Shown: in pieces, positions 10,002 to 20,717 of the stretch | Layout: the number at the start of each line of letters is the position of its first letter | How positions within the stretch are numbered: the stretch's first letter is position 1 | IMG/VR virus record: IMGVR_UViG_3300035703_000106 | Location: 1 to 57,814 of that record | Source of the DNA: a virus | Length of the DNA stretch: 57,814 bases | Reading direction: 5' to 3' (one strand) | Made by a program: the position numbers and the translations under genes | Notes under the pieces: generated by a model | Database searches by the model: none | Seen by the model: the letters and a program-made list of their open reading frames with translations, nothing else | What the model was told of the DNA's origin: nothing

Positions 10002-10961
10002 TTACAGGCCTGATGCTTCTTCCTGGGTCTTTGCAAGTTCAGGATCTGGGACTAGTCCATACTGTGCTAGTGCACCATCTGGTCCTGCCATGTCGTCGCT
10101 TAAAAAGAATTCTACGTACTCTTTCAGTCCAGGAATAACACCGATATGTGCATTCTTAACGTAGAAGTAAAGTGGACGGCTGATAGGATAATCACCACTT
10201 GAGATTGTCTCTACGCTAGGTGATACACCACTTACAGTAGCAACTTCTAACTTATCAGTGTTGTTCTGATAGAAGCTAAGACCGAAGACACCAAGTGCTG
10301 TCTTGTTTGCATCGAGACGTGAAAGTGTTTCGGTATAGTCACCATCGATATCTACAGAAGCACCATCAGTACGAACCTTGACACATGCTTTCTTCTGGTC
10401 ATCGTCTAGCTTCTCAACACCAAGAGCTTCCTTACATCCAGCTTCCATAACCTTTACGTCGAACACTTCGCGTGTACCGTGCTTGGTTCCTGGGATGTAG
10501 GCAAGAATCTCAACTTCTGGTAGAGCAGGATCTATGTCACTCCAGAGTTTAGCAGTGCTGCTTTCGTGTAGTGCGGTATAGAGCTGGAGAACGGTTAGGT
10601 CCTTGATATTCAGTTGACCGATGTTTGATGCAAATACAATGCCATCATAACCGAAACGTACTTCGGTGATTTTACCGATAGCAGCTTCACACTTCGCCCA
10701 TTCTTCATCTTTCATCTTAGAAGAACTATTGGCGATGTCTACAGTATTTTCACCAACACCTTCACAAAGCTTTTTGCGGCCTGCACCAGAACCACCACCT
10801 TCTACAACAGGCGATGGGAAGTCAAAATTTTCACCAAATGCTTCTGCTACAATAGTTGCATATGGTAGTACCGTTGAAGAACCAGTTACTTGAATCTGGT
10901 CACGAGCATTTGCAGCAGTTGCTACAGTGAGAGCAAGAATCGTGGATAGTACTAATTTCAT
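10002..10961 (-). CDS. pstS: PstS-like periplasmic phosphate-binding protein
   Basis: 319 residues with a clear Sec signal peptide (MKLVLSTILALTVATAANA). Residues that bind phosphate in the PstS family are recognisable: GSSTVLPYA near the mature N-terminus, GGGSGAGRK, and NSSSKMKDEEW. In the host periplasm it would capture phosphate for the host Pst ABC transporter, a known auxiliary metabolic gene of marine T4-like phages that helps supply phosphate for DNA synthesis. It is monocistronic, ends at a strong hairpin terminator, and has a leader able to fold over its ribosome binding site (10970-11028). Confidence 0.93.
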   Translation of the reverse strand: MKLVLSTILALTVATAANARDQIQVTGSSTVLPYATIVAEAFGENFDFPSPVVEGGGSGAGRKKLCEGVGENTVDIANSSSKMKDEEWAKCEAAIGKITEVRFGYDGIVFASNIGQLNIKDLTVLQLYTALHESSTAKLWSDIDPALPEVEILAYIPGTKHGTREVFDVKVMEAGCKEALGVEKLDDDQKKACVKVRTDGASVDIDGDYTETLSRLDANKTALGVFGLSFYQNNTDKLEVATVSGVSPSVETISSGDYPISRPLYFYVKNAHIGVIPGLKEYVEFFLSDDMAGPDGALAQYGLVPDPELAKTQEEASGL

Positions 10962-11624: not shown

Positions 11625-12578
11625 TTAGGCAGCGAGTGCAAACTCGACTGCCTTTTCTGCTGCTTTGATCTTGCGCAGCTGGTTCTGACCGAACCACTGG
11701 CTGTGCAAGCGGTTATCTGCGTTGCGACCCTGAAGGTGATCGGTGACGAAGGTAACCGAGTTAAACGCCTGCCACCAAGTACCTTCTGCGAATTCTGCAC
11801 CAGGCTGGGTTTCCAGAACGTCGAGAGACTGAAGAGCCATACGAGAGATGGTGTCTTTCGTAACCTCTTTCTGCTTATCCTGACCAGAGGTAAGCGGGAA
11901 GACTTCGTTGTAGTACTGGAGCAGAGACTCAACCGAGAAACGCTTGGAACCAAGGAACTGAGCCATCTCTTTGTACTTGGCGAATTTCTCGTGTGCAATA
12001 CCAAGAGTGGTTTTTACCGAGTCAGCGTCGAAAGCGGTACGGTGACCGACTTTCACTGCACGATCAGCTTGGCTATTCAAAGCGAAGGTAAGCGTGTTGT
12101 TGCAGACGACACGGATAGGGGTGAAGCGAACGTCAATGGACTTACCGTAGACGTGGGGGTTGCTGAAGAGGAAGTAGGAATCAACCTGGTCACCACCGAA
12201 CAGATCGAACGATTCTTTTACCTTAGCAAGTGCCCAGACATACTGACCGCCTTTAAGCGAACCAGCGGTGTGCATCTCCATATCACCAGCAAGAACGTAT
12301 TCGTTGAAGAACTCGAAGGCTTGCTCGTTCTGGAGCGGGTGCCAGTTTTCACCCACGTTGGTCAGGATCTTGCCATCGGTCTCGCGCACGAGCGATTTCT
12401 GACCAGTCTTAACTTTCTTACCATTGAACTCGATGAAGGATTCGACCTCGTGAACCTTCCAGTCGACGCCAGCTTTCTGCATCATCTGAACAGGGGTGAG
12501 GTCGTTGCTAACCTCGGTACCAAGACCATGCCAGGGAAGTTCACCAGCGTAAGCCATCGTTTCAACCATATGTGCCAT
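11625..12578 (-). CDS. DUF932 family phage/plasmid-type protein
   Basis: 317 residues from MAHMVETMAYAGELPWHGLG, chosen because AGGAGAATATATC precedes this Met; an upstream in-frame Met lacks a ribosome site. The opening (PWHGLGTEV), VRFTPIRVVCNNTLTFAL and the WQAFNSVTFVTDH segment match the DUF932/LGT_TIGR03299 family of phage and plasmid proteins of unknown function. It is downstream of a 45-residue gene and the strong early promoter at 12767-12795, so early expression is likely. A long antisense open frame covering it (11460-12626) is a shadow. Confidence 0.85.
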   Translation of the reverse strand: MAHMVETMAYAGELPWHGLGTEVSNDLTPVQMMQKAGVDWKVHEVESFIEFNGKKVKTGQKSLVRETDGKILTNVGENWHPLQNEQAFEFFNEYVLAGDMEMHTAGSLKGGQYVWALAKVKESFDLFGGDQVDSYFLFSNPHVYGKSIDVRFTPIRVVCNNTLTFALNSQADRAVKVGHRTAFDADSVKTTLGIAHEKFAKYKEMAQFLGSKRFSVESLLQYYNEVFPLTSGQDKQKEVTKDTISRMALQSLDVLETQPGAEFAEGTWWQAFNSVTFVTDHLQGRNADNRLHSQWFGQNQLRKIKAAEKAVEFALAA

Positions 12579-12603
12579 GATATATTCTCCTATTGGGGTT
12601 TGA

Positions 12604-12741
12604 TTAGAGACGACCGAAAGACTTGATAGCATCGCCATCGACGAGCTCTTTTTGAGCTTGGACGAGGGCGATTGTTTTTTCTTTTGCCGAGGTGATGATG
12701 ATGTAGCCTTTAGCGGTAGTAGCGATCCAGTCTTTCGTCAT
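12604..12741 (-). CDS. Small early protein, 45 aa
   Basis: 45 residues (MTKDWIATTAKGYIIITSAK at the start, ending KSFGRL). An AAGGAGATACCCG ribosome site follows an early promoter whose leader is almost identical to the one before the plus-strand operon at 53.3 kb. Soluble, mildly basic. Being first in an early operon suggests a host-takeover or regulatory peptide; this is inference. Confidence 0.65.
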   Translation of the reverse strand: MTKDWIATTAKGYIIITSAKEKTIALVQAQKELVDGDAIKSFGRL

Positions 12742-14677: not shown

Positions 14678-15254
14678 ATCTACGTTTCCATTCTTCAACA
14701 GTAATTTCTGGTAACTGTGGTTTTTTACCGTTATATATTATATTTTGCCAGCAATCTTTTCCAAAATCGCTTTTACAAGTAAGCATCATATCATCAGCCA
14801 TATGCCATGGGGTTTGGGTTCTATATTCTAATTTAACCCCAAAATATTTTATTGCTTGTCTTCGCGAAAGAGATTGCATAGAGATAAAAGCTGTTTCATA
14901 ACCTTTAATATATTCTAACTGATAGGGTAGAATTCTCATTGTCGGACTAAGAAATGTATCAGTCTTTGGATTTGTGAATCTTCTGTAATCTCTGTAAATA
15001 TAGGTTCTAGTCAAAACCCTATAACAATTATTATAGTATTTTTGAACTGTGGAAAATGCCATCGGTTTATCACCATCAAAGAGAAAAAACCATTCTGGAT
15101 AATTTAAAAATGTGTCCGGAAGAATACTAAACCATTCAATGTTTCTTTTATCATATAGATTATTTTCTCTACCTATTCTTTTTAGTTCATTCTTGAAATT
15201 ATCTATACCATATTCTCTTAGAGTTATGACTTTTTGATCAATCGTATAAACCAT
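14670..15254 (-). CDS. Hypothetical protein, possible GNAT-like fold, about 194 aa
   Basis: Starts MVYTIDQKVITLREYG, or five codons earlier at 15269. It is rich in aromatic residues, with WFFLFDGDKPMAFSTVQKYY followed by TRTYIYRDYRRF, which resembles the central strands of an N-acetyltransferase fold, but no clear acetyl-CoA loop is visible. It overlaps the end of the desaturase by about 30 bases and the start of the oxygenase by eight, so all three are co-translated. The function is not established. Confidence 0.6.
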   Translation of the reverse strand: MVYTIDQKVITLREYGIDNFKNELKRIGRENNLYDKRNIEWFSILPDTFLNYPEWFFLFDGDKPMAFSTVQKYYNNCYRVLTRTYIYRDYRRFTNPKTDTFLSPTMRILPYQLEYIKGYETAFISMQSLSRRQAIKYFGVKLEYRTQTPWHMADDMMLTCKSDFGKDCWQNIIYNGKKPQLPEITVEEWKRRYG

Positions 15255-15865
15255 GCTGCAGGGTCCCATTCATACCATTTCTTACCAATCTGCCAATCTC
15301 TAGGCCGATCATGATGATTTGCATGCCAACCTTCACCGCCAGTAAAGATGTTGACGAATGCAGAGTTTCTTACCTTTTCACCAGAGTGACAGATCGTATT
15401 TAGTAGTCCAAACCCCAGATATCCCCAGAAAATAGGAAGACCGATAAAAATTAGCCACCAAGAACCGGGAAGTATTATTACCCCTCCGACAATGGTAACC
15501 ATTCTAATTATATGGTGATGTTTATAGAACCACATAACCCTTGGATTCTTCAATAGATCTACTACATGTCTATGCTTAATAGCAGGAACTTTAAATGTAG
15601 AGGTAAGAATCTTCCAAACTGGTTGGTGCTTCGGAGAGTGAGGGTCCTTTGGTGTATCAGAATAATTGTGATGTAACCGATGTACACCAACCCATCCCAA
15701 AACAGGACCTGCACCAGACAGTGGGCCTAAGATTAGAACGAGATATTCATACCAAACGCCTGCTTCAAAAGCTCTATGAGAAAAATATCTATGATATCCA
15801 GCAGATATTACTATAGAAGATAGAATCAACCACCAGATAAAACTATAGATCAGAATTTCAATCAT
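15224..15865 (-). CDS. Acyl-CoA/fatty-acid desaturase
   Basis: 213 residues, hydrophobic with several membrane segments. The three histidine boxes of membrane desaturases are intact: HRYFSH at 25-30, HRLHH at 62-66 and HANHH near the C-terminus. Di-iron enzymes of this family introduce double bases-chain unsaturation into acyl chains in the host membrane. Somewhat short compared with bacterial delta-9 enzymes (about 250-300). Such genes occur in marine T4-like phages and may adjust membrane fluidity. It has its own TTTACA/TATAAT promoter (15929-15957) and a leader of about 60 bases. Confidence 0.88.
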   Translation of the reverse strand: MIEILIYSFIWWLILSSIVISAGYHRYFSHRAFEAGVWYEYLVLILGPLSGAGPVLGWVGVHRLHHNYSDTPKDPHSPKHQPVWKILTSTFKVPAIKHRHVVDLLKNPRVMWFYKHHHIIRMVTIVGGVIILPGSWWLIFIGLPIFWGYLGFGLLNTICHSGEKVRNSAFVNIFTGGEGWHANHHDRPRDWQIGKKWYEWDPAAWFIRLIKKS

Positions 15866-19634: not shown

Positions 19635-19659
19635 AAAGGGAAGCAAAAAGCTTCCCTTT
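19635..19659. terminator. Terminator hairpin after the small outer-membrane-like gene
   Basis: AAAGGGAAGC / GCTTCCCTTT, a 10-bp stem with a five-base loop. T-runs follow on the minus strand (TTTTTTTATTG). It ends the tmRNA and beta-barrel-like gene transcript. Confidence 0.85.
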
Positions 19660-19682: not shown

Positions 19683-20012
19683 TTAGAATTCGAAACGAAC
19701 GCCAACCTGAGCATCTTCATAAGCCATATCTGCGTCTGCCTGAACAGCACCAAATACATGGACTGCATTGCTTAGACCGTAAGCAGCTTCAACACTTACG
19801 CCATCGAAGGTAAGACCGTCGGTGTTAGCGGTAGCATAGAGACGTGGTGCAACGGCAAAATCGCCGAATGCAAGATCAGGACCCGCTTCAAGTGCAACTG
19901 CTTCATTCTCTACTGAATAAGCAGCTTCACCTGAAACGCCGAGATAAGGGTTAGCGAAAGCTGAAGTGGCGAGGGTTGCAGCAGCTACAGTAGAAAGAAG
20001 AAATTTCATCAT
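19683..20012 (-). CDS. Small secreted beta-barrel-like (outer membrane type) protein, 109 aa
   Basis: A signal peptide (MMKFLLSTVAAATLATSAFA) and a short mature chain of alternating hydrophobic strands (VSGEAAYSVENEAVALEAGP, FAVAPRLYATAN, AYGLSNAVHVFGAVQADA), ending VGVRFEF. A terminal Phe in an alternating strand is the outer-membrane beta-signal. About eight short strands could form a small or oligomeric barrel. AAAGGAAATATAAA is the ribosome site. It lies right after the tmRNA gene and may share its transcript. A receptor-masking or superinfection role is speculation. Confidence 0.7.
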   Translation of the reverse strand: MMKFLLSTVAAATLATSAFANPYLGVSGEAAYSVENEAVALEAGPDLAFGDFAVAPRLYATANTDGLTFDGVSVEAAYGLSNAVHVFGAVQADADMAYEDAQVGVRFEF

Positions 20013-20039
20013 TTTATATTTCCTTTGAGATTAGAGTTA

Positions 20040-20345
20040 AGTGGTCCGTTCTGTTTCTAGGTGGAACCATACCCAAAGTACTTAAGCAGCTAGTGCGTAA
20101 GCCTTAGGAGCAAAGTTATCGTTTGCATTTATTAGGTTTGACCGATACGAGGTCATCCGGTAATCTCCACGTCTTTTCAACACCTGTCGAATCCCTTTCG
20201 GCCCCATCAAAAGTACACCCAGACCTCTAGAAGTCTATCGTTTGTGTCGCAAACTAAGGAATTCAAACCCTCGCAGAAAAAACCTATTCCGCTACATGTT
20301 ACCCTAGAGTGTACTTTTGGTGGAGCCGCCGGTATCGAAACCGGG
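20040..20345 (-). ncRNA. ssrA: Circularly permuted two-piece tmRNA (ssrA)
   Basis: On the minus strand the acceptor piece comes first: a T-arm (CCGGT-TTCGAT-ACCGG) then CGGCTCC-A-CCA ending at 20318. The coding piece starts at 20205 with GGGGCCG, which pairs completely with CGGCTCC and includes G3-U70, the alanine identity pair. GGGATTCGACAGG follows, the conserved 5' tmRNA motif. The tag frame (20126-20082) encodes ANDNFAPKAYALAA then TAA. The processed loop is bracketed by a 10-bp inverted repeat (20209-20218 and 20309-20318) that extends the acceptor stem. Acceptor-before-coding order is the permutation known in alphaproteobacteria. It would rescue stalled ribosomes and tag proteins. Exact ends are approximate; a TATAAT box lies near 20450 on this strand without a clear -35. 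Confidence 0.93.
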
Positions 20346-20489
20346 TCCAGAATGTTTATCGTCTGCTTCAACGATTACAGATACTATTTAACCATATCTA
20401 CTCTTGATTGTACATATCTTATTCCAATTCCTTTATCAGATGTGATAATTATAACACATCCGTCTGAGTCATAGAATATATGTCTATCT

Positions 20490-20717
20490 TTACTTTGTCT
20501 GTAAGTGGTCATCCGGATTAATACGTCCCCATTTAATCTTTAGCCAGATTCTTTCGTGAACATAATAATCAACACTCAGAAGAATGTGTAGAATAGTAGC
20601 AAATCCTGTTGCGCTACCTAAATTACCCGTGAACATATAAGTCCAAATAATAGTAAATAACCACGCAGTTAATCTATAAGTTATCATTCGAACTAATGTT
20701 CTCTTATGAGTTTCCAT
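20490..20717 (-). CDS. DUF2061 membrane protein
   Basis: 75 residues from METHKRTLVRMITYRLTAWL; a TTG start four codons earlier is less likely. The pattern KRTLVRMITYRLTAW, two membrane helices and a C-terminal VHERIWLKIKWG matches the DUF2061 family of small two-span inner-membrane proteins of unknown function, common in marine bacteria. It overlaps the end of the dNMP kinase gene by 14 bases. Confidence 0.8.
   Translation of the reverse strand: METHKRTLVRMITYRLTAWLFTIIWTYMFTGNLGSATGFATILHILLSVDYYVHERIWLKIKWGRINPDDHLQTK

Follow-up and report, generated by a model that had tools for sequence, protein, structure and literature searches.

The stretch of DNA analysed here (the window) is a viral record of 57,814 bases. 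It encodes a circularly permuted tmRNA on its minus strand, at approximately 20040-20379. The gene begins with the acceptor piece (the 3' tRNA-like segment), which is followed by an intervening sequence (IVS) and then by the coding piece with the tag. The features of the locus are listed in the direction of the gene.

20490..20717, minus strand: gene for a 75-aa DUF2061 small membrane protein, upstream of the tmRNA (PF09834, 30.6 bits, cut-off 23.1)
20384..20512, minus strand: 42-aa ORF conserved in relatives L005-L007; its end lies 4 nt ahead of the RF04321 match
20318..20379, minus strand: acceptor piece (T-arm, 3' acceptor strand and encoded CCA); RF04321 model position 1 lies at 20379
20329..20345, minus strand: T-arm, CCCGGTTTCGATACCGG
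20322..20328, minus strand: 3' acceptor strand CGGCTCC, with U70 paired to G3
20309..20319, minus strand: 5' arm of the precursor clamp, CAAAAGTACAC, starting within the CCA
20206..20317, minus strand: IVS, 112 nt, non-coding and not in the mature tmRNA
20208..20218, minus strand: 3' arm of the precursor clamp, GTGTACTTTTG
20040..20205, minus strand: coding piece (5' acceptor strand GGGGCCG, GGATTCGAC, tag frame and 3' helix), with its 3' end taken from the RF01849 match
20194-20186, minus strand: GGATTCGAC
20082..20126, minus strand: tag codons and TAA stop, ANDNFAPKAYALAA, from ARAGORN
19683..20012, minus strand: downstream gene, 109 aa, with a signal peptide-like N-terminus (beta-barrel-like by eye), which also follows the tmRNA in L005-L007

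ARAGORN called a permuted tmRNA (tmRNA*) at 19991-20412 with the tag ANDNFAPKAYALAA. The Rfam model for permuted tmRNA, RF04321, matched 20082-20379 with 112.8 bits against a cut-off of 47. The alphaproteobacterial model, RF01849, matched 20040-20431 with 96.3 bits against a cut-off of 50; this match spans the full model (1-355) and is gapped, with a poor fit in the 3' half of the coding piece. All three agree with the sequence-only reading, which had described a phage-borne, circularly permuted tmRNA of the alphaproteobacterial type and had named RF01849 and ARAGORN as the means of checking it. That reading placed the gene at 20040-20345, but the acceptor piece reaches further, to about 20379, and the 5' end of this piece is approximate (20379 by RF04321, 20412 by ARAGORN and 20431 by RF01849).

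The acceptor stem forms as had been read by eye. GGGGCCG (20205-20199) and CGGCTCC (20328-20322) pair at 7/7 positions, G3·U70 included. The CCA is encoded at 20320-20318, the spacer runs from 20317 to 20206, and the coding piece begins with GGGGCCG at 20205. The conserved GGATTCGAC motif does follow the acceptor strand, as proposed, and this strand can be specified as the 5' one, in the coding piece. The T-loop differs from that of most relatives, and the T-arm is unlike the GGGGGCGGTACCC type of the near relatives L005 and L006. These two share the flanks, the downstream gene and the tag with the window but differ from it in one block made up of T-arm, acceptor and IVS. Within this block, acceptor pair 4 is G-C in the window and C-G in L005 and L006, a compensatory change of both strands. 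The G3-U70 pair is G-U in 63/63 distinct phage genes with an IVS of at least 50 nt, including that of the window.

An inverted repeat of 10 bp had been proposed to bridge the two pieces. The repeat is present and is 11 bp long (CAAAAGTACAC/GTGTACTTTTG), but it does not bridge the mature pieces. Since it lies almost wholly inside the IVS that is removed, it clamps the precursor. In the 63 distinct phage genes with an IVS of at least 50 nt, 89% of clamp positions pair in the fixed register, with 3.9 pair types per position; when the clamp is slid by one to three positions, at most 59% pair. These genes were selected by acceptor pairing (at least 6/7), and clamp pairing played no part in the selection. 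In the window, AT at 20207-20206 together with the 3' clamp arm gives UGAU facing ACCA, with a C74-A mismatch. The phage genes likewise continue the precursor helix beyond the clamp with A76-U, C75-G, a C74·A mismatch (57/63) and A73-U. Because the helix passes through ACCA/UGAU, the entire CCA is buried in the precursor. The clamp thus covaries strongly across phages and stacks on the acceptor stem via ACCA/UGAU. It may hasten pairing of the split acceptor, offer a substrate for processing and span long IVSs.

The IVS has a median length of 81 nt in 79 phage genes and 34 nt in 78 sampled bacterial genes. A strong clamp is present in a minority of the bacterial genes (for example, L206 and L215) and absent from most. 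In the window, no significant ORF fills the spacer (coverage 0.51, shuffle p 0.56), and the fold of the IVS interior is at chance level (z 0.19). Two other kinds of content were considered and rejected. For a relic of a tRNA or T-arm in the spacer of the window, suggested by GGTTTGAATTCC, no T-arm motif was found above shuffles, and ARAGORN scores were low. For a structured cargo RNA in non-coding IVSs, the z scores of the interior folds spread around zero.

The tag of the window, ANDNFAPKAYALAA, has an open frame, a stop codon and a hydrophobic AA end. Each of the 33 distinct phage tags has an intact frame and a final AA (LAA in 29), which makes the window tag chemically ordinary. The exact tag is coded in 6 viral contigs, and none of the 84,980 genomes of bacteria and archaea searched matched its exact coding. 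A host could not be identified by an identical tag, as none of the bacterial genomes searched carries it. The peptide that had been proposed as phage-specific is therefore so by sequence but not by chemistry, since it has the usual end for proteolysis. Elsewhere in the window, a DUF932 protein (11625-12638) has the C-terminus ...VEFALAA, which resembles the end of an ssrA tag and is possibly a built-in degradation signal or a product of chance.

The record is a fragment of a T4-like phage, as had been suggested by eye. Gp23, gp21, a tail tube protein, gp43 DNA polymerase, a gp41-like helicase, gp44/45, gp46/47, UvsX and a late sigma factor were identified. The polymerase is closest to that of Kyanoviridae phage C48C1 (54% identity), and C48C1 has no RF04321 match. 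Two further proteins were observed in the window: a fatty-acid desaturase-like protein, by eye (15224-15865), and a PstS-like phosphate-binding protein with a weak PHROG match (10002-10961).

A 24-base signature of the gene was found in at least 119 IMG/VR stretches but in only 18 from the set of 84,980 genomes of bacteria and archaea. A tree of 143 core sequences sets the phage genes apart from the sampled bacterial genes with two label changes; since a single motif served to retrieve the phage genes, this separation may be overstated. The window lies beside L007, L005, L006 and L008 in this tree. RF04321 also matched above its cut-off, without annotation, in the isolate phages Phosso, RcXuper, RcRudolph, Cp1R7A-A1 and vB_EliS-L02. 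Nucleotide matches to the window tmRNA in INPHARED were limited to Rhodobacter phage RcXuper and Sinorhizobium phage Phosso. The genes of these two are permuted like that of the window, with the tags ANENFAPMEMRLAA and ANDNVSTKVALAA and IVSs of 109 and 410 nt, respectively. The alphaproteobacterial tmRNA represented by Caulobacter ssrA and RF01849 has the same gene order, G3-U70, a tag of the form ANDN...AA and an encoded CCA.

The tmRNAs of mycobacteriophages and Bacillus phage G are one-piece and unpermuted, and that of DS6A consists of the tRNA-like domain only. They are, like the tmRNA of the window, encoded by the phage (PMC4131195). A two-piece tmRNA has been described in Methylophilales phage Melnitz, a T4-like phage of OM43. 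The same study counted 53 phage tmRNAs of the two-piece type (50 from marine or aquatic samples) and gave a permuted tmRNA for 17/47 contigs of the Melnitz cluster (PMC9004378). The sequence-only reading had called a permuted form in a T4-like phage striking. Such a form was already published (PMC9004378) and is common in IMG/VR, and the window gene is therefore an addition to a documented group. Melnitz ssrA (MZ577097) resembles it as an alphaproteobacterial-type two-piece tmRNA of a T4-like phage of the Kyanoviridae with the same type of clamp (TAAACACTT / AAGTGTTTATGAT). It differs in that its IVS holds an ORF and in its tag and neighbours. A riboswitch has been reported beside the Melnitz tmRNA, whereas an Rfam search of the window found none.

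We put the probability at roughly 0.8 that the two-piece tmRNA encoded by this phage is functional; it would be processed and charged and would rescue stalled ribosomes and tag their products via host factors. The gene has complete anatomy, acceptor pairing with a compensatory change, conserved identity elements, a covarying clamp and an intact tag. Points that count against a working gene are the gapped fit to RF01849, the unusual T-loop, the lack of a nearby promoter above chance and the absence of SmpB from the contig, which is a fragment. RNase P and 3' processing, alanylation, the use of SmpB and ClpXP and a benefit to the phage would be expected from established tmRNA biology. The two acceptor strands would pair as one transcript folds, and the ends of the IVS would lengthen this pairing to a single helix of about 20 bp through ACCA/UGAU. 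Host enzymes would then remove the IVS, with RNase P cutting at G20205, 3' nucleases trimming to the encoded CCA and perhaps RNase III cutting in the clamp. Two RNAs would remain, joined by the acceptor stem, and host AlaRS would charge the product with alanine via G3-U70. Relying on host SmpB, the phage tmRNA would free ribosomes stalled in infection, and the products would be tagged with ANDNFAPKAYALAA for host ClpXP-type proteolysis.

The same RNA could instead act as a decoy and block host trans-translation by binding SmpB or ribosomes of the host. Such a role has been proposed for the RNA of mycobacteriophage DS6A, which is tRNA-like only. Inhibitory tmRNA-like phage RNA has precedent (PMC4131195; PMC11915505), and no SmpB was found on the window's 57.8-kb contig, itself a fragment, which would suit a decoy. 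However, the DS6A form has no tag, whereas the phage genes keep the tag frame, stop and AA end in 33/33 cases, all needless for a decoy, and we consider this explanation unlikely. Slightly less likely still is a tag whose purpose is specific to the phage, for example to label host proteins for recycling or to steer proteins away from proteolysis. The tag sequence is phage-specific and selective degradation has been speculated upon (PMC9004378), but the ALAA C-terminus is an ordinary proteolysis signal, in line with the LAA end of 29/33 phage tags, and tmRNA has no known means of selecting host proteins. The least probable of the alternatives is a decaying copy, captured from a host or left by imprecise prophage excision. 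Although prophage fragments of ssrA exist (PMC9004378), both pieces are complete here and the acceptor carries a compensatory change. In addition, the lineage of the phage genes is separate from the bacterial genes sampled, the exact tag occurs in none of the bacterial genomes searched, and T4-like genes surround the tmRNA. A working tmRNA gene is thus the reading that we prefer, and the value of the window gene lies mainly in its phage-specific tag and its lack of annotation.

The tmRNA is probably made as part of a single transcript from an operon of dNMP kinase, DUF2061, 42-aa ORF, tmRNA and 109-aa ORF. The position of the 42-aa ORF suggests read-through of the operon into the tmRNA. The 109-aa protein had no Pfam or PHROG match. 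Sequences characteristic of a T4 late promoter, TATAAATA and TTAAATA, occur at chance frequency, and there is no TATAAATA at the tmRNA; the upstream TTAAATA therefore does not support a late promoter. Matches to sigma-70 promoters near the tmRNA are at background level, with no nearby promoter above chance. A hairpin followed by T-rich sequence at 19635-19659 could, on the minus strand, terminate the tmRNA operon.

In relatives of the window, the spacer itself can hold a protein gene. A sense ORF longer than in shuffles (p at most 0.05, uncorrected) was found in 16 of 35 IVSs of at least 95 nt, and 4 further homologues bring the number of distinct phage IVSs with a small protein gene to 20/79, about a quarter. 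These nested genes (L018/L067/L079, L098, L027, L046, L052, L093, L109, L114, L116 and others) include HNH endonucleases in L018 (PHROG 2e-25) and L098 (1.7e-11) and several small membrane-like proteins. Pairwise dN/dS is about 0.05-0.27 in five groups of IVS ORFs. The tmRNA genes that carry ORFs retain the acceptor stem, tag and clamp, with 9.1/10 clamp positions paired compared to 4.0 in shuffles. The ORF in the IVS of L109 resembles the end of Melnitz gene 85, the gene directly upstream of the Melnitz tmRNA. The proteins encoded in the IVSs of L046 and L027 had no homologues among the cultured phages in INPHARED. In the isolate Melnitz (MZ577097.1, L255:834-975), the IVS is 142 nt long and contains GGAG-ATG and an open, unannotated ORF that starts with ATG at 855 (MFKWLSKTRLVV...). 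As an isolate carries such an ORF, assembly error is not the cause.

Some of these genes are found both inside and outside the spacer. One, ORF-A, is the IVS ORF of L046 and L219, and the DUF2061 protein of the window is 33% identical to it over 63 aa (E 2e-11, pairwise). At the same place in L007, which has a nearly identical tmRNA, there is no DUF2061 gene. ORF-A lies inside the IVS at 9/16 loci (3 of the 9 judged by eye, 2 of these 3 running off the contig end) and elsewhere at the others, 2 of which retain nothing but remnants of the clamp. In L221 and L222, ORF-A is flanked by clamp-like ends and the tmRNA pieces were not found; these may be what is left of a tmRNA that was lost from around its cargo. 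A second ORF, ORF-B, is inside the IVS in 15/20 cases (3 of the 15 judged by eye), and the other 5 are distant stand-alone homologues.

We somewhat favor the idea that small protein genes, for both membrane proteins and HNH homing endonucleases, use the spacer of the split phage tmRNA as a landing site. These genes would be expressed from the precursor, excised without splicing and able to move between the slot and the flanks of the tmRNA. The window would then represent the outside state, with the clamp and a long IVS kept and the DUF2061 gene just upstream. An analogue is the IVS of Coxiella burnetii 23S rRNA, an excised spacer with an S23p ORF (PMC4990558), although it belongs to another RNA and the window IVS itself has no ORF. 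The tmRNA database paper mentions a tRNA and a repetitive element as contents of IVSs, and names homing endonuclease genes for group I introns alone (PMC11915505). A search that covered mainly open-access text yielded no account of a protein gene inside the IVS of a permuted tmRNA, and such nested genes in phage tmRNAs appear to be undescribed so far. The spacer must be discarded, yet phages seem to carry whole genes there under a conserved clamp. If true, this would amount to a niche like that of an intron but without the need for self-splicing, and it is open to testing in the isolated phage Melnitz.
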